From positions 1-33,623 of the forward strand of contig CALKES010000032.1 of assembly GCA_938084715.1 (NCBI GenBank): a stretch of DNA of 33,623 nt, in the 5' to 3' direction. Below are positions 2,006 to 33,623 of the stretch, in pieces. Numbering within the stretch: the first letter of the stretch is position 1; every line of letters begins with the position of its first letter. The notes under the pieces are model-generated. The model had not been told where the DNA came from and ran no database searches. It saw only the letters and a list, made by a program, of their open reading frames with translations. The position numbers were made by a program, and so were the translations under genes. This stretch comes from Candidatus Bipolaricaulota bacterium. Its GTDB lineage: Bacteria > Bipolaricaulota > Bipolaricaulia > Bipolaricaulales > Bipolaricaulaceae.

Positions 2006-3753
2006 GGTCCCTCCTCCGGATGTACCGGTTCGTCAGGCCCTACCGGTGGGCGGCCCTTGGGGCCCTCGCCCTCCTCCTCGGGATGGTGGGCGCGGACCTC
2101 CTCATCCCCCGCCTCACCCAGCGGATCATCGACGTCGGCATCGCCCGGGGGGACCTGCGGACGGTGGGGCTCACCGCCGCCGCGATGATCGGCCTCGCCG
2201 TCCTCAGCACCCTGTTTGCGATCGCCAACACCGTCCTCTCCGTCCGGGTGGGCCAAAGCTTCGCCCACGACGTCCGCAACGCCCTCATGGGGAAAGTTCA
2301 GACGTTCTCGTTTGCCGACCTCGATAAGTTCCGCACGGGCCAGCTCATCGTCCGGTCCACGAGCGACGTGGGGATGGTGGAGATGGTCGTGGCGATGTCC
2401 CTGCGGATCCTCACCCGGGCCCCGGTGTGGATGGTGGGGAGCGTGGTCCTCCTCGTCCTCACCAGCCCCCGGCTGGCGTGGATCCTGGTGGGGTTCATCC
2501 CGGTGATTGCGGTCATCATGGCCATCTTCCTCTCCCGGGGGCGGTCGATGTTCACGGCTGTCCAGGGGCAGCTGGACCGGCTGAACACCGTGCTCCAGGA
2601 GAACCTGGCCGGGGTGCGGGTGGTGAAGGCGTTTGTGCGGGAAGAGCACGAGGCCAGGCGGTTCGATCGGGAGAACGAGGCCCTGATGCGGCGCCAGATT
2701 GGGGTGATGACGTTCTTCGCCGTGCTTGCCCCGACGATGACCCTCCTCGTGAACCTCGGGGTGGTGGGGGTGATCGGGCTTGGGGGGTGGGCCGCGATCG
2801 GGGGCGAGCTCACCGTGGGCCAGGTGGTGGCGTCCGTGAACTACCTCACCTACGCCCTGTTCCCGATGATGCTCATCGCCGGGATGATGGGCCCTCTCTC
2901 CGCGGCCGAGGCCTCCGCCTCCCGGATCCTCGAGGTCCTGGACGCGGAGCCGTCGGTGCGGGAGAGGCCGGGGGCCAAGGCGTGGAAGCCCTCCTCCTCC
3001 CGGGGAGCGAGGGTCGCGTTTGAGGACGTGTGGTTCTCCTACAACGGGGAACCCGTCCTCCGGGGGGTGAGCTTTGTCGCCGAGCCGGGGGAGACGGTGG
3101 CCATCCTCGGGGCCACGGGATCCGGAAAGTCAACCCTCCTCCACCTCATCCCCCGGTTCTACGACGTGACCGCGGGAAGGGTGGCCGTGGACGGGGTCGA
3201 CGTCCGGGACTACACCCTCGCCTCCCTCCGCCAGGGAATCGGGATCGCCCTCCAGGAGCCCGTCCTGTTCACAGGGACGGTCCGCGACAACATCCGCTAC
3301 GGCCGGCCCGAGGCGGGGGACGAGGAGGTGGTCGCCGCGGCCCAAGCCGCCCAGGCCCACGAGTTCATCCTCGAGCTCCCCCGGGGCTACGCCACGGTCG
3401 TCGGGGAGCGGGGGGTGAACCTATCGGGGGGCCAGCGACAGCGGATCGCCATCGCCCGGGCCCTCCTCGTCCGGCCCCGGCTCCTCCTCCTCGACGACAG
3501 CACCAGCTCGCTGGACATCGAAACCGAGGTCAAGCTGCAGGACGCCCTGGACCGGCTCCTGGCCCGGGACATGCCCGCGACCCGGTTCGTGGTCGCCCAG
3601 CGGGTGAGTACGGTGATGCTGGCGGACAAGATCGTGGTCCTGGACGAAGGGCGGGTGGCCGCCCTGGGGACCCACGACGAGCTCATGGAGCGGAGCCCAA
3701 TCTACCAGGAGATCTACGCGTCCCAGCTTGGGGGTGAGGCCCGTGTCCCGTGA
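2002..3753 (+). CDS. Heterodimeric ABC exporter, subunit with degenerate ATP site
   Basis: A 583-residue half-transporter: six-helix exporter domain (about 1-310), then the nucleotide-binding domain. Walker A is GATGSGKST (about 370-378) and the signature is LSGGQ (474-478). Walker B ends LLLLDD, so the catalytic glutamate is replaced by Asp 499, and the switch histidine is replaced by Gln 533 (VVAQRVST). These two substitutions are the known mark of the degenerate-site subunit in heterodimeric exporters of the TM287/288 and BmrCD type. The partner is the next gene. The GTG start overlaps the marR stop by 4 bp. Likely substrates are drugs or lipids expelled across the inner membrane; the sequence does not tell which. 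Confidence 0.9.
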   Translation: MRSLLRMYRFVRPYRWAALGALALLLGMVGADLLIPRLTQRIIDVGIARGDLRTVGLTAAAMIGLAVLSTLFAIANTVLSVRVGQSFAHDVRNALMGKVQTFSFADLDKFRTGQLIVRSTSDVGMVEMVVAMSLRILTRAPVWMVGSVVLLVLTSPRLAWILVGFIPVIAVIMAIFLSRGRSMFTAVQGQLDRLNTVLQENLAGVRVVKAFVREEHEARRFDRENEALMRRQIGVMTFFAVLAPTMTLLVNLGVVGVIGLGGWAAIGGELTVGQVVASVNYLTYALFPMMLIAGMMGPLSAAEASASRILEVLDAEPSVRERPGAKAWKPSSSRGARVAFEDVWFSYNGEPVLRGVSFVAEPGETVAILGATGSGKSTLLHLIPRFYDVTAGRVAVDGVDVRDYTLASLRQGIGIALQEPVLFTGTVRDNIRYGRPEAGDEEVVAAAQAAQAHEFILELPRGYATVVGERGVNLSGGQRQRIAIARALLVRPRLLLLDDSTSSLDIETEVKLQDALDRLLARDMPATRFVVAQRVSTVMLADKIVVLDEGRVAALGTHDELMERSPIYQEIYASQLGGEARVP

Positions 3754-5623
3754 CGAACCCCCTCGGACGGGCCCTGGACCGCGGCCGTTCGCGCCGGGGA
3801 TGCCCGGTCCCGGGGGCCGGGGGATGATCGGAACCCGGATCGAGAAGGCCCGGGACGTGCCGGGAACCCTGCGCCGGCTCCTCCGCTACCTCCGCCCCTA
3901 CCGGGCCCACTTCGCCGCCGTGTTCGTCCTCGCCCTCCTCGCCACGGCCCTGTCCCTCCTCGGCCCGTTCCTCATGGGCCGGGCGATCGACGGGGCGATC
4001 CGCGGCCGCGACGCGGGACTCCTCTTCCGGATCGTCCTCCTCATGGCCGGGACCTACCTCCTCGCGTGGGGGGCCCGCTACGGGGAGAACGTGATCCTGG
4101 CCCGGGCCTCCCAGCGGGCCATGCGCACCCTGAGGGGGGATCTGTTCGGCCACCTCCAGACCCTCCCCCTGCGGTTCTTCGACGCCCGCCCCCATGGCGA
4201 GCTCATGAGCCGGCTCACCAACGACCTGGAGGCCATCAACCGGGTGCTGTCCCAAAACGTGCTCCAGCTCTTCTCGGGGGCGCTGACGGTGGTGGGGATT
4301 CTGGTGATGATGTTTTCCCTCAACCCCCTCCTCGCCCTGGGGGCCCTGGTGGCCTTCCCCCTGATGCTCGGCCTCGTGGGGTGGGTGGGAAAGCACACCC
4401 GCCAGGGCTTCCGGGAGTACCAGAAGAAGCTCGGGGAGCTCAACGGGCAACTGGAGGAGACGTACAGCGGGCAGCGGGTCGTGCTGGCCTTTGGCCGGGG
4501 GGAGGAGGTCCTCCGGTCGTTTGCCCAGGCCAACGCCGCGGTCCGCGACGCCGGGATCCGCGCCCAAACCTACGCCCTCCTCGTCCCGCCGATGATGGGG
4601 ATCCTCTCCAACGCCAACATCGCGATCCTGGCCGGGCTGGGGGGGTGGCTGACGATCCTCGGCCGGGCCAGCGTGGGGACCATCGCCGCGTTCGTAAGCT
4701 ACTCCCGGCAGTTCGCCGAGCCCCTGCGGATGCTCGGGGACCTGTACAACCAAATCCAGTCCGCCCTTGCCGGCGCGGAGCGGATCTTCGAGGCCCTCGA
4801 CACCCCCCCGGAACCCCCCGACCCCCCGGGGGCCGTGGTCCCGGCCGCCGTCCAGGGCCACGTCGTGTTCCGCGACGTCAGCTTCAGCTACGTCCCCGGG
4901 ACCCCCGTCTTGACCAACGTCTCCCTCGAGGCCCGCCCGGGGGAGACGATCGCCCTCGTCGGGCCCACCGGGGCCGGGAAGACCACGATCGCCAGCCTCC
5001 TCGCCCGGTTCTACGACCCGGACGAGGGCGAGATCCTCGTCGATGGGATCGACATCCGAAACCTCACCCGCCAGGACCTGCGCCGCCAGATCGGGATCGT
5101 GCTCCAGCAGACGTTCTTGTTTGCGGACACGGTCATGGAGAACATCCGCTACGGTCGCCTGGGGGCCACCGACGACGAGGTCGTCCAGGCCGCGGTGCTG
5201 GCCCACGCCGACCCGTTCATCCGCAAGCTCCCCGACGGGTACGGAACCGTCCTCACCGAGCGGGGGGCGAACCTAAGCGAGGGCCAGCGGCAGCTTCTGG
5301 CCATCGCCCGGGCGATCCTCGCTGACCCCCGGATCCTCATCCTCGACGAGGCCACCAGCAGCGTGGACACCCGGACCGAAGTGGCGATCCAGGCCGGGCT
5401 GCGGGCGGTGATGCGGGGGCGGACGAGCTTTGTCATTGCCCACCGCCTGTCCACGATCCGCAACGCGGACCAGGTGGTGGTGATCGAGGGGGGGCGAATT
5501 GTGGAGCGGGGGACCCACGACGAGCTCCTGGCTCGGCGGGGGGTCTACTGGCGCCTCCACACAAGCCAGTTCCGGCGCGTGCCGGCCGTCGCCGGGGGAG
5601 GGGGGCCCGGCGCCCCGGGCTAA
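3743..5623 (+). CDS. Heterodimeric ABC exporter, catalytic subunit
   Basis: The second half-transporter, 626 residues from the GTG at 3743, which is preceded by GGGGGTGAGG. TTG 3728 and GTG 3734 in the same frame lack such a site. A Pro/Gly-rich N-terminal stretch of about 40 residues precedes the six-helix domain. The ATPase has Walker A GPTGAGKTT (about 407-415), Walker B ILILDE with the catalytic glutamate intact, and the switch histidine in IAHRLST. Its signature reads LSEGQ rather than LSGGQ. In heterodimeric exporters the odd signature pairs with the degenerate site of the partner, so the two subunits match. It overlaps the preceding gene by 11 bp. Confidence 0.9.
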   Translation: MSRDEPPRTGPGPRPFAPGMPGPGGRGMIGTRIEKARDVPGTLRRLLRYLRPYRAHFAAVFVLALLATALSLLGPFLMGRAIDGAIRGRDAGLLFRIVLLMAGTYLLAWGARYGENVILARASQRAMRTLRGDLFGHLQTLPLRFFDARPHGELMSRLTNDLEAINRVLSQNVLQLFSGALTVVGILVMMFSLNPLLALGALVAFPLMLGLVGWVGKHTRQGFREYQKKLGELNGQLEETYSGQRVVLAFGRGEEVLRSFAQANAAVRDAGIRAQTYALLVPPMMGILSNANIAILAGLGGWLTILGRASVGTIAAFVSYSRQFAEPLRMLGDLYNQIQSALAGAERIFEALDTPPEPPDPPGAVVPAAVQGHVVFRDVSFSYVPGTPVLTNVSLEARPGETIALVGPTGAGKTTIASLLARFYDPDEGEILVDGIDIRNLTRQDLRRQIGIVLQQTFLFADTVMENIRYGRLGATDDEVVQAAVLAHADPFIRKLPDGYGTVLTERGANLSEGQRQLLAIARAILADPRILILDEATSSVDTRTEVAIQAGLRAVMRGRTSFVIAHRLSTIRNADQVVVIEGGRIVERGTHDELLARRGVYWRLHTSQFRRVPAVAGGGGPGAPG

Positions 5624-7847: not shown

Positions 7848-9885
7848 GGCGGGCCCGGAAGTCGGCGGCCACGACCCCGTCGGGGTAGCAGAGGATTGGG
7901 TTCACGTCGAGCTCCTCGATCTCGGGGACGTCGGCGGCCAGCCGGCTCACCCCCTGGACGGCCCGGGCGAGGGCCGGGAGGTCCACGGGGGGGCGGCCGC
8001 GGGCCCCGGCTAGGAGAGGGAACCCCCGGATCGAGCGGACGAGCTCCTCGGCCTCGCTCGAGGAGACGGGGGCCAGGGCAAACGCCACGTCCCCCAGAAC
8101 CTCGACGAACACCCCCCCCAGCCCCACCATGACGAGGGGCCCAAACGTGGGGTCCCGCACCGCCCCCAGGGCCACCTCCACCCCCGGGGGAAGGAGCTCC
8201 TGAACGTACACCCCTTGCGCCCCGGGAAACGCCCGGAGGAGCTCGCAAGCGGCCGCGGGGACCTCCCTCGACGGCACGCCGATCCGGACCCCCCCCGCGT
8301 CGGACTTGTGGACGAGCCCGGAGGCCACCACCTTGAGCACAACCCTCTCCCCAAGGGAGCGGGCGAGCTCCCCGGCCTCCTCGGGAGTGGAGGCCATCCC
8401 ACCCCGAGGGACCGGGACCCCATAGAGGGCGAGGAGGGGGAGGGCCTCCACCTCCAGCTTCTCCCGGCCGCGGAGGAACGGCTCCAGCGCGGAGCGGGGG
8501 ACGGGGGACGGGACTTGGGTCTCCGACAACCGCTCCCGGAGCTCCCGGTACCGGGCGAGGGCGGCCAGGGCCCGGACCGCCCGCGCCGGCTCGAAGTAGG
8601 CGGGGATCCCCGCCTCCCCGAGGATCCCCTCCGCCTCCTCCCCCAGCTCCCCGGCCATGAACGAGGCGGCGAGGGGGGTCCCTTTACCCCGGGCCTCGGC
8701 CAAGATCCGGGCCAGCTCGGCAAAGGTGAGGATCGGATGCGGGGCGGTGAGGACCAGGGCCATGTCCACCCCGGGGTCGGCGAGGACCCGGTCCACGGCG
8801 ACCCGGAACGTGCCGGCGGTGGCGTCGGCGAGGAGGTCCACGGGGTTGCGGAGGCTCGCCGCCGGCGAGACGTGGGGGGCGAGGGCCTCCACCGTGGCTG
8901 GGGAGAGGGGGGGGACCTCGAGGCCCGCCTCGGCCGCAGCGTCGGCGGCGAGGATCCCCGGTCCCCCGGCGTTCGTCACGATCCCCAGCCGCCGCCCCCG
9001 GGGGAGGGGCGCCTGGACCAGGGCCTGGGCGACCTCGAAGAGCTCCTCCACCGTCCCCACCCGGAGGACCCCCGCCTTGCGGAACGCGGCGTCGTAGGCC
9101 CGGTCGGAGCCAGCGAGGGCCCCGGTGTGGGACGAGGCCGCCCGGGCCCCAGCCTCGCTCCGGCCCGCCTTGAGGACGACCACGGGCTTCTTCCGCGTCA
9201 CCTCCATCGCGGCCCGCACGAACTCCCGCCCGTCCTCCACCCCCTCGAGGTAGAGGGCCACGGCCCCCGTCTCCGGGTCCTCGTCCAGGGCGGGGAGAAA
9301 GTCCACCTCGTCCAGGACCGCCTTGTTCCCAAGCGAGACAAAGGCCGAGAAGCCCACCCCTTTCGTCCACGCCCAGCCGAGGACCGCGCTCCCCAGGGCC
9401 CCGGATTGGGATAGGAAGCCAATCTTCCCCGGTCGGGCCCCCCGGGGGGCGAACGTGGCGTTGAGCCCCACCCGCGGAAGGACGACCCCGAACGCGTTTG
9501 GGCCCAAGACGTTGAGGTCGTACTCCTGGGCGATGCGGACGAGCTCCCGTTCCCGCTCGACCCCTTCCTCCCCCACCTCCTTGAACCCCGCGGTGAGGAC
9601 GGCGGCGTTCCGGATCCCCTTGCGACCGCAGGCCCGGAGGGCCTCGAGCGCCGCCGCCGGGGGGACGAGGATCAGGGCGAGGTCCACCGGATGGGGGAGG
9701 TCGTCCACCGTCGGGACGCAGGGTCGCCCGAGGAGCTCCCGGTAGCCGGGGTTCACCCCGTACACGGGTCCAGGAAAGGAGACCACGTTGGCGAAGAGCA
9801 CGCCCCCGATCTTCTGGGGGGAGGCCGACGCCCCCACGACGGCAACCGACCGCGGATGGAGAAACGCCGAAAGATCCCGGGCCAT
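7819..9885 (-). CDS. Acetyl-CoA synthetase (ADP-forming), fused alpha-beta subunits
   Basis: A 688-residue enzyme converting acetyl-CoA, ADP and phosphate to acetate, CoA and ATP, the energy-conserving step of many anaerobic fermenters. In order: a CoA-binding Rossmann domain (SVAVVGASASPQKIGGV), a succinyl-CoA-ligase-like region with LSQSGALG, the phosphohistidine loop SSHTGALAGSD, and a C-terminal ATP-grasp domain with VVLKVVASGLVHKSDAGGV, whose histidine is the second phosphorylation site. Alpha and beta parts are fused, as in many bacteria. ATG 9885 fits the usual MARDL...LHPRSVAVVG start; an upstream extension would run through the promoter. Substrate choice among acyl-CoAs cannot be read from the sequence. 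Confidence 0.9.
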   Translation of the reverse strand: MARDLSAFLHPRSVAVVGASASPQKIGGVLFANVVSFPGPVYGVNPGYRELLGRPCVPTVDDLPHPVDLALILVPPAAALEALRACGRKGIRNAAVLTAGFKEVGEEGVERERELVRIAQEYDLNVLGPNAFGVVLPRVGLNATFAPRGARPGKIGFLSQSGALGSAVLGWAWTKGVGFSAFVSLGNKAVLDEVDFLPALDEDPETGAVALYLEGVEDGREFVRAAMEVTRKKPVVVLKAGRSEAGARAASSHTGALAGSDRAYDAAFRKAGVLRVGTVEELFEVAQALVQAPLPRGRRLGIVTNAGGPGILAADAAAEAGLEVPPLSPATVEALAPHVSPAASLRNPVDLLADATAGTFRVAVDRVLADPGVDMALVLTAPHPILTFAELARILAEARGKGTPLAASFMAGELGEEAEGILGEAGIPAYFEPARAVRALAALARYRELRERLSETQVPSPVPRSALEPFLRGREKLEVEALPLLALYGVPVPRGGMASTPEEAGELARSLGERVVLKVVASGLVHKSDAGGVRIGVPSREVPAAACELLRAFPGAQGVYVQELLPPGVEVALGAVRDPTFGPLVMVGLGGVFVEVLGDVAFALAPVSSSEAEELVRSIRGFPLLAGARGRPPVDLPALARAVQGVSRLAADVPEIEELDVNPILCYPDGVVAADFRARLRASPRPPS

Positions 9886-29820: not shown

Positions 29821-30066
29821 CTAACGGCCGAACAACCTCCGGAGGAGCTCCCCCCGGTCTTCTCCCAGGTGCTCTGCGACCTCCTTGAGGACGCGGTTCA
29901 AGGTCCCCACCCGCCAGGGCCTGTGCCGAGGAAGGGTCACGTGATGTTCTCCCCCAAGCGCGGTGGTCAGCCGCAGGGGACTGCCCGTCTAGCGCGTCAC
30001 GCGATACCCGAGGCGGGCCAAGGCCTGGGCGAGGTCCTCCCCGCCCAGGTCGCGCGGAAGCTTCAT
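29821..30066 (-). pseudogene. hicA: Decayed HicA-type toxin (amber codon)
   Basis: From ATG 30066 to TAG 29821 the frame encodes a full-length HicA-like protein of 81 codons (MKLPRDLGGEDLAQALARLG, then GYRVTR), but codon 26 (29991-29989) is TAG where a glutamine is expected. After it the frame continues TGSPLRLTTALGGEHHVTLP and then RHRPWRVGTLNRVLKEVAEH. The family's catalytic GSH motif reads GSP (codon 30), so the active-site histidine is lost as well. The start overlaps the end of the upstream hicB remnant by 4 bp (ATGA), as in an intact operon. Two independent lesions argue for a dead toxin. Confidence 0.75.
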
Positions 30067-30269
30067 ACGGGGATGAGTTCGTCCTTGACCAGGTGGAGCC
30101 GGATGAGGCGGGGCCGCGTCTCCCCTTCAAAGTGGCAGCGCACGGCGTCGCGCACGCGGGCCTTGAGCTCCTCCATGGTCTCCGCCTCGGTGAAGATCGC
30201 CTGCCCCAGGGCGTGAGCCTCCTACCCGCCCTCAGGCGATTCCCCGACGACGAACACGATCTCGCTCAT
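30063..30269 (-). pseudogene. hicB: Decayed HicB-like antitoxin (amber codon)
   Basis: ATG 30269 to TGA 30063, 68 codons. It reads MSEIVFVVGESPEGG, then TAG at codon 16 (30224-30222), then EAHALGQAIFTEAETMEELK and a segment ending RCHFEGETRPRLIRLHLVKDELIPV. Apart from the amber codon the frame is intact and matches small HicB-like antitoxins that precede MKLPRDL-type HicA toxins. The tyrosine normally found at the amber position fits a single-base change. TAG ends many healthy genes in this window, so readthrough as a sense codon is not expected. Confidence 0.7.
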
Positions 30270-30513: not shown

Positions 30514-30759
30514 CTAAAGAAGTTTCAGCCGGCGAAGATCGTCCTCGGTCCAGCCAAGGTCATCCAGAAGCGCCTTCAGGGTCTTGGGGGGAAAGGTGTC
30601 TCCCGGACGCCGATAGGGCACCACGACCCGCCGGCCATCTTCCGGGTGGACGTACACGCGGTGGCTTCCCCTCTGGCGATCAAGAGAAAAACCGTCGCGT
30701 TCGAGCGCGGTGCAGAGTTCGCGGACGGTGAGCTTTCGAAGCTCGGGCGGGACCCTCAT
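30514..30759 (-). CDS. hicA: HicA mRNA interferase toxin
   Basis: An 81-residue double-stranded-RNA-binding-fold protein. LTVRELCTALERDGFSLDRQ leads to RGSHRVYVHP, holding the conserved Gly-Ser-His with catalytic His 33. It continues with GRRVVVPYRRPGDTFPPKTLKALLDDLGW, typical of the YcfA/HicA family. HicA cleaves mRNA independently of ribosomes until HicB binds it. The ATG at 30759 overlaps the hicB stop by 4 bp (ATGA), so translation is coupled in the order antitoxin-toxin. Unlike the neighbouring pair it is free of stop codons and keeps its histidine. Confidence 0.88.
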   Translation of the reverse strand: MRVPPELRKLTVRELCTALERDGFSLDRQRGSHRVYVHPEDGRRVVVPYRRPGDTFPPKTLKALLDDLGWTEDDLRRLKLL

Positions 30760-30992
30760 ACGCTCACGGTGAGCGTCTCTTCCTCCCTGAGCGCGGGGGT
30801 GGCGTGGGCCTCCACGGGAATGGGCTCGCCGTGGGAGAGCATGGACTCCAGGTACGCCGCCGCGGCCTCTTGGATGTTGGCCAGGGCCTCCTCCCGGGTT
30901 GCCCCCCAAGTGTGGCAGCCTCGAAGGCCAGGGCAGTAGGCGTGGAATCCGCCCTCATCTTCCTCGAGGACCACGCGCACCCGGAACGTCAT
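30756..30992 (-). CDS. hicB: HicB antitoxin
   Basis: A 78-residue protein. MTFRVRVVLEEDEGGFHAYC, then PGLRGCHTWGATREEALANI, then QEAAAAYLESM is the HicB partial RNase H-like domain that caps the toxin. The usual C-terminal DNA-binding domain is very short or absent, as in many small HicB proteins. The ATG at 30992 has GGAGGTGG just upstream and a possible minus-strand -10 box (TATACT, 31016-31011). A longer frame exists upstream but lacks family sequence. Confidence 0.88.
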   Translation of the reverse strand: MTFRVRVVLEEDEGGFHAYCPGLRGCHTWGATREEALANIQEAAAAYLESMLSHGEPIPVEAHATPALREEETLTVSV

Positions 30993-31480: not shown

Positions 31481-31606
31481 GGGGAGCACGGCCCGGAAGC
31501 CCAGGTTGTTGTTCTCGTTGCTGGGCCCGTTGTTGTTGCGATTGGCGACGCGGCAGTTGTAGGCGTTGTCCTTCCAGCTGCCGCCGCGGATCGCCCGGTT
31601 CGTGCC
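31481..31606 (-). ncRNA. DGR template repeat (TR)
   Basis: 126 nt, 51 nt downstream of the reverse transcriptase stop on the same strand. It aligns without gaps to the variable repeat at 33218-33343. Read in the target's frame it encodes 42 residues without stops, 11 of them asparagine (ten AAC and one AAT codon), the typical adenine-loaded design of DGR templates. The RNA made from here would be copied by the reverse transcriptase with errors at adenines. The 25 nt at its 3' end (31505-31481) contain no sense-strand adenine and are identical in both repeats, which fits the homing-initiation segment. Confidence 0.92.
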
Positions 31607-31657
31607 GCTGGACAGAACCCCATCTCCCTCACTTGCCCTTCCTGGCCTCAGGAACGC

Positions 31658-32662
31658 TCACGGGACCACGCTTACCCGCCCGACGACCGCCCGCCGGAAC
31701 CCAGCGGTGTCCGCGAACCTCACGTAGGCCAGGAGCGGCTCCACGTGGCGCTGTAGCTCCTCCTCAGACCAGTCCCCCCTCTCCCAGCGCCCCTCGTAGC
31801 CCGCGAGCCTCCGGGCGAACCGCCGCCGTGCCCGGGAGCCGAGCCTCACCTGGCCTGGAAAGACCCGGTACCCCAGGAACGGGAGACCGCGCGTGCTCCG
31901 GTTCAGCTGCACGTCCGCCTTGAGGGTCAGCCTGAGCCGGGAGCGGAGGTACGCCTCAATGGCCACCTGGTGGCCCCGCAGCGTCGCCCTGTCCTCCCCC
32001 CACAGGACGAAGTCGTCCATGTAGCGGACGTAGCCGCGCACCCGGAGGGTCTCCTTGACCCAGTGATCCAGGGGCCCGAGGTAGAGGTTCGCGCAGTGCT
32101 GGGAGATGAGGTTCCCAATCGGGAGCCCCTTCCCGGGCGTCGTCTCGTAGGTGCCGACAAACGTGCGGAACAGCCGGAGGAGCCGCCGGTCCTTGAACCT
32201 CGTCCCGAGGAGCCCGAGGAGCACCTCGTGGTCCACCGAGTCGAAGTAGCGCGCGACGTCGAGCTTGAGGTACCAGGGGAACCGTCGAGCGAAGGCCTGC
32301 GCCCGCCGGATGGCGGCATGAAGGCCCTTCCCCTTCCGGCAGGCGTAGGAATCGGGAATCGCGTAGCGCTCGAGAACAGGTTCGCACACGTTCATGACCG
32401 CGTGGTGGAGGACCCGCTCCGGGAACGGGGCGGCGCAGATGACCCGCTCCTTGGGATCGCGGATCGTGAAGAACCGGTAGGCTCCCACCGATACCGCCTC
32501 CCGGAGCAAGTCCTCCCGGAGCCGGGCCAGGTTCTCGTCTAGGTGGGACGCGTACTGCCGCACCTCGGCCCGATCCCGCTTCCCACGGCTGGCCTTCCAG
32601 AACGCAAGCCGGAGGTTTTCTGGGTCGGCGATCCGCTCGTAGAGGTTCCCGACCCGCCTCAT
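31658..32662 (-). CDS. DGR reverse transcriptase
   Basis: A 334-residue RNA-dependent DNA polymerase of the group II-intron-like/DGR clade. Catalytic aspartates lie in LKLDVARYFDSVDH (about Asp 135) and YMDD (214-217). Motif 4 reads GLPIGNLISQHCANLYL (179-195), with the IGN-x-x-SQ form that marks DGR enzymes instead of the QG of other reverse transcriptases. RGLPFLGYRVF is the expected motif 6/7. No maturase or endonuclease domain follows, as usual for DGRs. The ATG overlaps the HRDC gene stop by 4 bp. It would copy the template RNA mutagenically at adenines. Confidence 0.95.
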   Translation of the reverse strand: MRRVGNLYERIADPENLRLAFWKASRGKRDRAEVRQYASHLDENLARLREDLLREAVSVGAYRFFTIRDPKERVICAAPFPERVLHHAVMNVCEPVLERYAIPDSYACRKGKGLHAAIRRAQAFARRFPWYLKLDVARYFDSVDHEVLLGLLGTRFKDRRLLRLFRTFVGTYETTPGKGLPIGNLISQHCANLYLGPLDHWVKETLRVRGYVRYMDDFVLWGEDRATLRGHQVAIEAYLRSRLRLTLKADVQLNRSTRGLPFLGYRVFPGQVRLGSRARRRFARRLAGYEGRWERGDWSEEELQRHVEPLLAYVRFADTAGFRRAVVGRVSVVP

Positions 32663-33165
32663 CGGGCCTCCTCCCGTTCCGGTGCGTCGGGATCGGGCGA
32701 CCGGGGGTCGGTCGAGGGCTCGGCCCCGCGGACCAGGCCGAGGACGGCCTCGCCGTACTTCTCAAGCCGGGCCTGGCCGACACCTGCGATCGAGCCGAGC
32801 TCGGCCTTCGTCCCGGGCCGCAGCCGGGCCACCGCCGCGAGCTGCTCGTTCGTGAAGATCGTGTACAGGGGGACCCCCTCCTCCTCCGCGGCCGCCTTAC
32901 GCCACTGGCGCAAGCGGACGAACACCGCGAAGTCCTCCGGGGCGAGGAGCTGCTTGTAGTCGGGCCGGGCTCCGCCGGACTTGCCGGGACCTTCCGCGGG
33001 GGGGCCCTCCAAGAACTCCACGACGAGCGCCCAGTACGAGCCGGGGCCCGCTGGGACGAACTCCCGCCCGACGGCGAGCACGCGGTGGGAGCGGAGGAAC
33101 CGGTTCAGCTCTTCCTCAGCAGCCCGGTCGCCCGTCGCCCGAACGGAGAAGAAGCGAAGTTGCAC
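32659..33165 (-). CDS. HRDC-domain DGR accessory protein
   Basis: A 168-residue protein with a GTG start at 33165 and GAGGGG upstream. Residues 1-55 form a beta-rich domain (MQLRFFSVRATG...YWALVVEFLEG). Residues about 79-146 are an HRDC domain (FAVFVRLRQWRKAAAEEEGV, then PLYTIFTNEQLAAVARLRPG) with a GIAGVGQ-like turn (SIAGVGQARLEKYG). HRDC domains bind nucleic acids in RecQ and RNase D. In some DGRs an HRDC protein occupies the place of Avd, the usual accessory factor that binds the reverse transcriptase; no Avd-like gene is present here. It lies between target and reverse transcriptase, 40 bp after the former. Confidence 0.85.
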   Translation of the reverse strand: MQLRFFSVRATGDRAAEEELNRFLRSHRVLAVGREFVPAGPGSYWALVVEFLEGPPAEGPGKSGGARPDYKQLLAPEDFAVFVRLRQWRKAAAEEEGVPLYTIFTNEQLAAVARLRPGTKAELGSIAGVGQARLEKYGEAVLGLVRGAEPSTDPRSPDPDAPEREEAR

Positions 33166-33205
33166 CCCTCACCCCCTCCTCCGGCGCCGCGTCGCCAGAC
33201 CCCGC

Positions 33206-33623
33206 TCACGGACCTACGGGGAGCACGGCCCGGAAGCCCAGGGAGTTGTCCTCGCTGCTGGGCCAGGCGTAGTTGCGAAAGGCGACGCGGCAGTTGTAGC
33301 CGTAGACCTTCCAGCTGCCGCCGCGGAACGCCCGGCCCGTGCCCGACGCCGGGCCCCGGGGGTCGGTCCCCGGGGACGAGGCGTAGTAGTCCCTGCTCCT
33401 CCAGTCCCAGCACCACTCCCCCACGTTCCCCGCCATGTCGTAGAGGCCGTACCCGTTCGGGGCGAAGCTCCCCACCGGGCTCGTGTAGGGCTCGCTTCCG
33501 GTCTTGTACGTGGGGTGGTAGCCCCGGGTCGGGCCCGTGTCGTAGCGGTAGCTCGAAGAGCTCCAGTAGTTCGCCCGGCTGTGCCCGATCGTGTCGGTGT
33601 CGCACCACGGGAACCGGTGCCCC
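33206..33623 (-). CDS. DGR variable target protein, formylglycine-generating-enzyme/C-lectin fold (partial)
   Basis: The 3' part of a gene whose start lies outside the window. The visible 138 residues begin HRFPWCDTDTIGHSRANYW and contain TRGYHPTYKTGSEPYTSPVG, FAPNGYGLYDMAGNVGEWCW and DPRGPASG, then FRGGSWK and end LGFRAVLPVGP. This is the FGE-sulfatase (SUMF1) family, whose C-type-lectin fold is the commonest scaffold of DGR targets. The last 45 codons include the variable repeat, which stops four codons before the TGA. DGR target proteins typically display the variable residues in a ligand-binding pocket. An enzymatic formylglycine role is unlikely. Confidence 0.92.
   Translation of the reverse strand, partial: GHRFPWCDTDTIGHSRANYWSSSSYRYDTGPTRGYHPTYKTGSEPYTSPVGSFAPNGYGLYDMAGNVGEWCWDWRSRDYYASSPGTDPRGPASGTGRAFRGGSWKVYGYNCRVAFRNYAWPSSEDNSLGFRAVLPVGP
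33218..33343 (-). repeat. DGR variable repeat (VR)
   Basis: 126 nt, exactly 42 codons in frame, at the 3' end of the target gene. Against the template it shows 16 substitutions and no gaps. Fourteen fall on template adenines (of 31), two on the other 95 bases. They change 12 of 42 residues, for example Asn to Gly, Phe, Tyr, Ala, Ser and Asp. The adenine-free 3' end (33242-33218) is unchanged. Confidence 0.93.

Follow-up and report, generated by a model that had tools for sequence, protein, structure and literature searches.

A probable chromosomal diversity-generating retroelement of the HRDC-accessory type in Candidatus Bipolaricaulota

Is the group of genes at one end of a Candidatus Bipolaricaulota contig a diversity-generating retroelement (DGR), and has it been rewriting its target gene? 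In the DGR of BPP-1, reverse transcription of the RNA of a template repeat (TR) introduces errors at adenines, and the resulting cDNA takes the place of a variable repeat (VR). The stretch of DNA analyzed here (33,623 nucleotides; hereafter the window) is the entire contig G000:C32 of a genome of 1.38 Mb that is 96% complete. Judging from the sequence, we consider the locus very likely to be a chromosomal DGR of the HRDC-accessory type with mutagenic homing into the VR. This kind of DGR is already well known, and the Bipolaricaulota element is an additional member; our literature search, which was incomplete, found no DGR paper for Candidatus Bipolaricaulota.

Parts of the element

Read 5' to 3' on the minus strand, the locus consists of the 3' end of a target gene (33623-33206), a gene for an HRDC protein (33165-32659), a reverse transcriptase (RT) gene (32662-31658), and the TR (31606-31481). 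An earlier note, made from the letters of the DNA, had placed the VR, the accessory gene, the RT, and the TR on a single strand, and its positions for all four agree with ours.

The RT (31658-32662, minus strand; 334 amino acids) contains RYMDDF and LPIGNLISQ, and both motifs listed in the earlier note (YMDD and IGNLISQ) are present in this open reading frame (ORF). The latter stretch also includes the SQ motif, which serves as a criterion for DGR RTs (PMC3521204). The protein matched the DGR phage family phrog_1423 (E = 2.5e-104), and its best match among solved RTs was 8ub7 (E = 1.2e-43), compared with 2.8e-17 for the best group II RT. The PDB name of 8ub7 is just "Reverse transcriptase," and we take it to be the DGR RT of Bordetella phage BPP-1. 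In the RT tree, 97 DGR RTs were separated from two outgroup RTs, and the window RT was placed among the DGR RTs. The structure match, the phage family, and the tree all assign this RT to the DGR lineage.

The accessory gene (32659-33165, minus strand) overlaps the RT gene by 4 bp, as the earlier note had seen in the same two ORFs, and such an HRDC gene adjoining or overlapping the RT is what defines the HRDC-accessory type. The encoded protein of 168 amino acids has an N-terminal beta-alpha-beta-beta domain and a C-terminal HRDC domain (PF00570, E = 1.4e-20). In its AlphaFold2 model (pLDDT 85.5), the HRDC domain overlays the HRDC domain of Escherichia coli RecQ (1wud) with an rmsd of 0.7. A Foldseek search with this model returned solved matches to the HRDC part only and none to the N-terminal domain. 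This N-terminal domain (residues 1-55 of the protein; window 32662-33165, minus strand) is conserved among DGR HRDC proteins. An HRDC gene is located upstream of the RT in 67 of 80 relatives.

The TR (31481-31606, minus strand) and the VR (33218-33343, minus strand) are the sole strong direct repeat in the region; both have 126 nt, and they are 87% identical and 1.7 kb apart. The TR is rich in AAC codons and is located ~50 bp 3' of the RT stop codon. The VR is located at the 3' end of the target, and the last 25 nt of the VR are free of variation. Among the 16 mismatches in the 126 positions, 14 are at template adenines, of which the TR has 31 (hypergeometric P = 1.7e-8), and the VR has T at seven, G at five, and C at two of these sites. 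Near-repeats with mismatches at TR adenines are characteristic of DGRs. A search across the genome for other TR/VR pairs or a second DGR found two repeat copies and one RT only. A TR downstream of the RT corresponds to group 2 of Schillinger et al. 2012 (PMC3521204). TR/VR pairs were detectable in 61 of the 80 related loci, and 46 of these 61 have the order VR-HRDC-RT-TR.

The target part in the window (33206-33623, minus strand) is the C-terminal part of an FGE/C-lectin domain and continues on contig C4 of the same genome. Its 138 in-frame codons (33206-33622) match positions 144-254 of the FGE-sulfatase profile PF03781 (E = 1.7e-22), and the start of C4 encodes the other half of the domain (profile positions 11-146). 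The first 141 bases of C4 are identical to the last 141 of the window, as is typical of k-mer overlaps within a single assembly graph. The joined target ORF encodes a right-handed beta-helix (PF13229) and the FGE-sulfatase domain. Structure matches of the target comprise FGE enzymes and the variable protein 1 of Treponema denticola (2y3c); together with PF03781, these indicate a C-lectin fold for the target whose 3' end carries the VR. The description in the earlier note of a complete DGR with an FGE/C-lectin target is thus borne out for the element and its target type, supported by the RT, the TR/VR pair, and PF03781, but not for completeness, because the contig end splits the target.

Two toxin-antitoxin loci had also been reported next to the element. 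One is an intact HicA/HicB pair (30514-30992, minus strand), composed of a HicA toxin (30514-30759; PF07927, E = 5.3e-17) and a HicB antitoxin (30756-30992; PF15919, E = 1.6e-9), neither of which is part of the DGR. The second, a HicA-like/HicB-like pair (29824-30066 and 30069-30269, minus strand) recognized by visual inspection of the translation, is broken: the reading frames of the two genes are interrupted by stops at codons 26 and 16, respectively.

Variation between two strains

A second Candidatus Bipolaricaulota contig (CAKZSO010000066.1, or G001:C66; 4150 bp), hereafter L014, spans the whole element. Its TR is 100% identical to that of the window, the RT differs at one codon, and the HRDC gene differs by one substitution. 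The two VRs (positions 2171-2296 in L014) differ at 19 of 126 positions, 15 of which are template adenines (P = 6e-8), and each of the 15 VR codons that changed encodes a different amino acid. Compared with the TR, the L014 VR has 20 differences, 18 of them at adenines (P = 1e-11). The remaining 1.85 kb downstream of the VR (intergenic region, HRDC gene, RT gene, TR, and beyond) contains three substitutions and one 56-bp indel between the strains. Since the VR differs at template adenines while the TR is identical and the RT nearly so, these sequences indicate that the element diversified its target recently. A VR identical in all strains, which the earlier note had named as evidence against its proposal, is not what this pair shows; the VR differs between strains and the TR is constant. 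The differences between TR and VR outside adenines are four in all, namely, C44G and G79T in the window and C45G and T52G in L014.

By the mechanism outlined above, we infer that the TR would be transcribed and that the RT, aided by the HRDC protein, would copy the transcript into cDNA, placing random bases opposite its adenines. Homing would then put this cDNA in place of the VR, at the target's 3' end, such that the putative ligand-binding face of the C-lectin (FGE-fold) domain is rewritten and the TR stays constant.

The genome bin G001, to which L014 was assigned, has its own orthologues of the flanking genes. These are mostly 71-82% identical (92-96% in one stretch) and are found on other contigs, where no DGR adjoins them. 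Consequently, L014 probably comes from a sister strain within the window's species and was placed in the wrong bin, such that the two contigs may represent strains of a single species. Transfer between species is the less likely explanation of L014, mis-binning being simpler given these orthologues. Two natural variants of the element exist in either case.

Could these patterns have arisen without a DGR? The RT has weak matches to the group II RT/maturase profile TIGR04416 (103.9 bits) and to a retron RT profile (34.5 bits), as might be found if its origin were a group II intron or retron and the TR and VR resembled each other by chance. However, these scores are far below the curated cut-offs of 300 and 235, respectively, the nearest solved structure is a DGR RT, and the Rfam search of the window gave no match, so no intron RNA was found. 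The RT also groups with DGR RTs in the tree; a placement in group II introns or retrons, which the earlier note had listed as a reason to abandon its view, did not result. Together with the adenine-restricted TR/VR differences and the VR differences between strains, which by themselves already refute such an origin, these results led us to reject it as exceedingly improbable. An old duplication of the target 3' end, with no mutagenic homing, would also produce two 126-nt copies 1.7 kb apart. It is refuted by the mismatches at template adenines in both strains and by an identical TR accompanied by different VRs, and we give it practically no weight. A viral or plasmid origin of the element was rejected as well: relatives in phage and plasmid records have <60% identity and those on viral contigs have ≤49%, whereas cellular loci outside the phylum reach 69%.

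Hairpin and target

In BPP-1, a hairpin downstream of the VR is required for efficient homing (PMC3240598); we treated this hairpin as a usual DGR feature and not as a condition for membership. In L014, 56 bp directly 3' of the VR, bordered by CGCGG direct repeats, fold into a strong hairpin. The corresponding region of the window (33175-33205, minus strand) lacks these 56 bp, with a junction at ~33192 between the CGCGG repeats, and the folding z-score downstream of the VR is -3.9 in L014 and +0.46 in the window. The hairpin or cruciform typical of DGRs is thus missing 3' of the VR in the window, but it is present in L014 and many relatives. Given the need for it in BPP-1, homing of the window copy may be less efficient than that of the L014 copy, provided that the loss is not an artefact of assembly or amplification.

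Most relatives have a GC-rich hairpin of some form 3' of the VR. Their mean folding z-score is -2.64 downstream of the VR, compared with -1.37 downstream of the TR and -0.34 inside RT genes. Similarly, the motif CGGAG occurs downstream of the VR in 41 of 56 loci, downstream of the TR in 13, and inside RT genes in 6, and GCGGAGC was found in 33 of 57 loci with 2.1 expected from shuffles. A strict test for GRNA/GGA-loop hairpins was positive for 11 of 66 VRs and 15 of 397 control windows (P = 3e-4), a less clear signal than that from folding energy or the CGGAG motif. A further locus (L211 on contig G040:C27) has two FGE genes (2070-3620 and 8264-9106), each followed by nearly the same, L014-like hairpin (3697-3734 and 9145-9195), with the pairing of the outer stem kept despite sequence change. 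No DGR RT match was found in this genome, even though targets and hairpin are present.

For the target, the same ORF was found in L014 (953-2308; 451 amino acids, TTG start). Just upstream and in a different frame, L014 encodes a predicted secreted trypsin-like domain (220-858; PF13365), and this domain is followed by a stretch in a third frame. The frame break between the trypsin-like and beta-helix/FGE parts is common to the window strain and L014. The G040 gene at 2070-3620 has trypsin-like and FGE domains in a single ORF, which suggests that the fusion frame may have been lost in the window's lineage. Outside the VR, 12 codon differences between the target ORFs of the two strains are non-synonymous and 4 are synonymous, which is the neutral ratio; together with the out-of-frame target, this would fit a decaying target. 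In the comparison of L014 1517-2093 with the window and C4, the conserved GNVWEW motif is GNVGEW in the window and GTVWEW in L014. The view of the earlier note that all parts are intact does not hold, given that the target ORF and the secreted domain encoded upstream are in different frames and the hairpin is missing from the assembled window.

Relatives and known systems

In the RT tree, the window RT clusters with those of Opitutia and Kiritimatiellia (≤69% identity), followed by Thermodesulfobacteriota. Among 59 related genomes, a close RT was found in two only, namely, G001 (identical) and G006 (52%, partial). This limited distribution points to a gain of the DGR in the window's lineage from another phylum. 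The DGR is located between two blocks conserved in the genus (in the window up to ~29515 and on C4 from ~1943), which are far apart in another genome (G009). The G006 locus, from the same genus (L196 on G006:C54; 353-461, 605-1096, 1093-1506, and 1532-1640), is a decayed DGR. Its HRDC gene is intact, the RT has 137 amino acids and lacks the N-terminal ~143 residues, the TR and target genes are kept, and 19 of 26 VR mismatches are at TR adenines. In G055 (L198 on G055:C13), a truncated TR (~4138-4211) comes 59 bp after a target VR (~4016-4079), and no RT or HRDC match was found within 8 kb around them. The G040 targets with no RT match are a further case of decay. These patterns suggest that the Bipolaricaulota lineage acquired DGRs from distant phyla and later lost them stepwise.

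Has the window's own element entered such decay? It may have been active recently and now be decaying, with the hairpin lost, the target frameshifted and neutral, and the VR frozen. The 56-bp deletion relative to L014, the broken frame, the neutral ratio outside the VR, and the decay of DGRs elsewhere in the genus and class all agree with this. However, the RT, the HRDC gene, and the TR are nearly unchanged between the strains (one codon, one substitution, and none, respectively), the hairpin loss could be an artefact of assembly or amplification, and the 16 codons that differ outside the VR are too small a sample to test selection firmly. We regard decay in the window's strain as possible, if somewhat doubtful. 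Bolder, and in our judgment unlikely, is the proposal that a long, often branched CGGAG(C) hairpin marks the homing site of HRDC-type DGRs and is recognized by the HRDC protein, a relative of a RecQ DNA-binding domain, instead of Avd. On this view, hairpin loss, as in the window, would leave the target stranded and set off the kind of decay observed in several Bipolaricaulota genomes.

As a DGR with mutagenic homing into the VR, the reading that we favor, the locus adds an element with natural evidence of recent activity for this candidate phylum. The hairpin family and the repeated decay are its interesting parts. The strain pair with and without the hairpin provides a natural test of the need for it outside phages, and the hairpin family common to DGRs of the HRDC type suggests, for an accessory protein that is poorly understood, a role that can be tested.

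Compared with known systems, the locus resembles the HRDC-type cellular DGR of Treponema denticola (PMC4891356) in its DGR RT, the HRDC gene overlapping the RT gene, and a C-lectin/FGE-like target with a 3' VR. In T. denticola, the accessory gene is between the TR and the RT, with the TR upstream of the RT, whereas the window TR is downstream; the window also differs in its Bipolaricaulota host and in the beta-helix of its target. With the TR ~50 bp downstream of the RT, the locus is an instance of the group 2 architecture (PMC3521204) with no essential difference. It shares with the BPP-1 DGR (PMC3240598; RT 8ub7) a homologous RT, adenine-specific TR/VR differences, and a variable C-lectin at the target C-terminus, but it has an HRDC protein in place of Avd and the TR after the RT, and the hairpin 3' of the VR is missing in the window and present, in longer form, in L014. 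The DGR targets of multicellular bacteria (PMC10907252) likewise combine an FGE-type C-lectin VR domain with an adjacent trypsin-like peptidase domain; unlike in those targets, no STAND NTPase or adapter domain was seen here, and the peptidase in the window's lineage is predicted to be secreted and is out of frame with the target.
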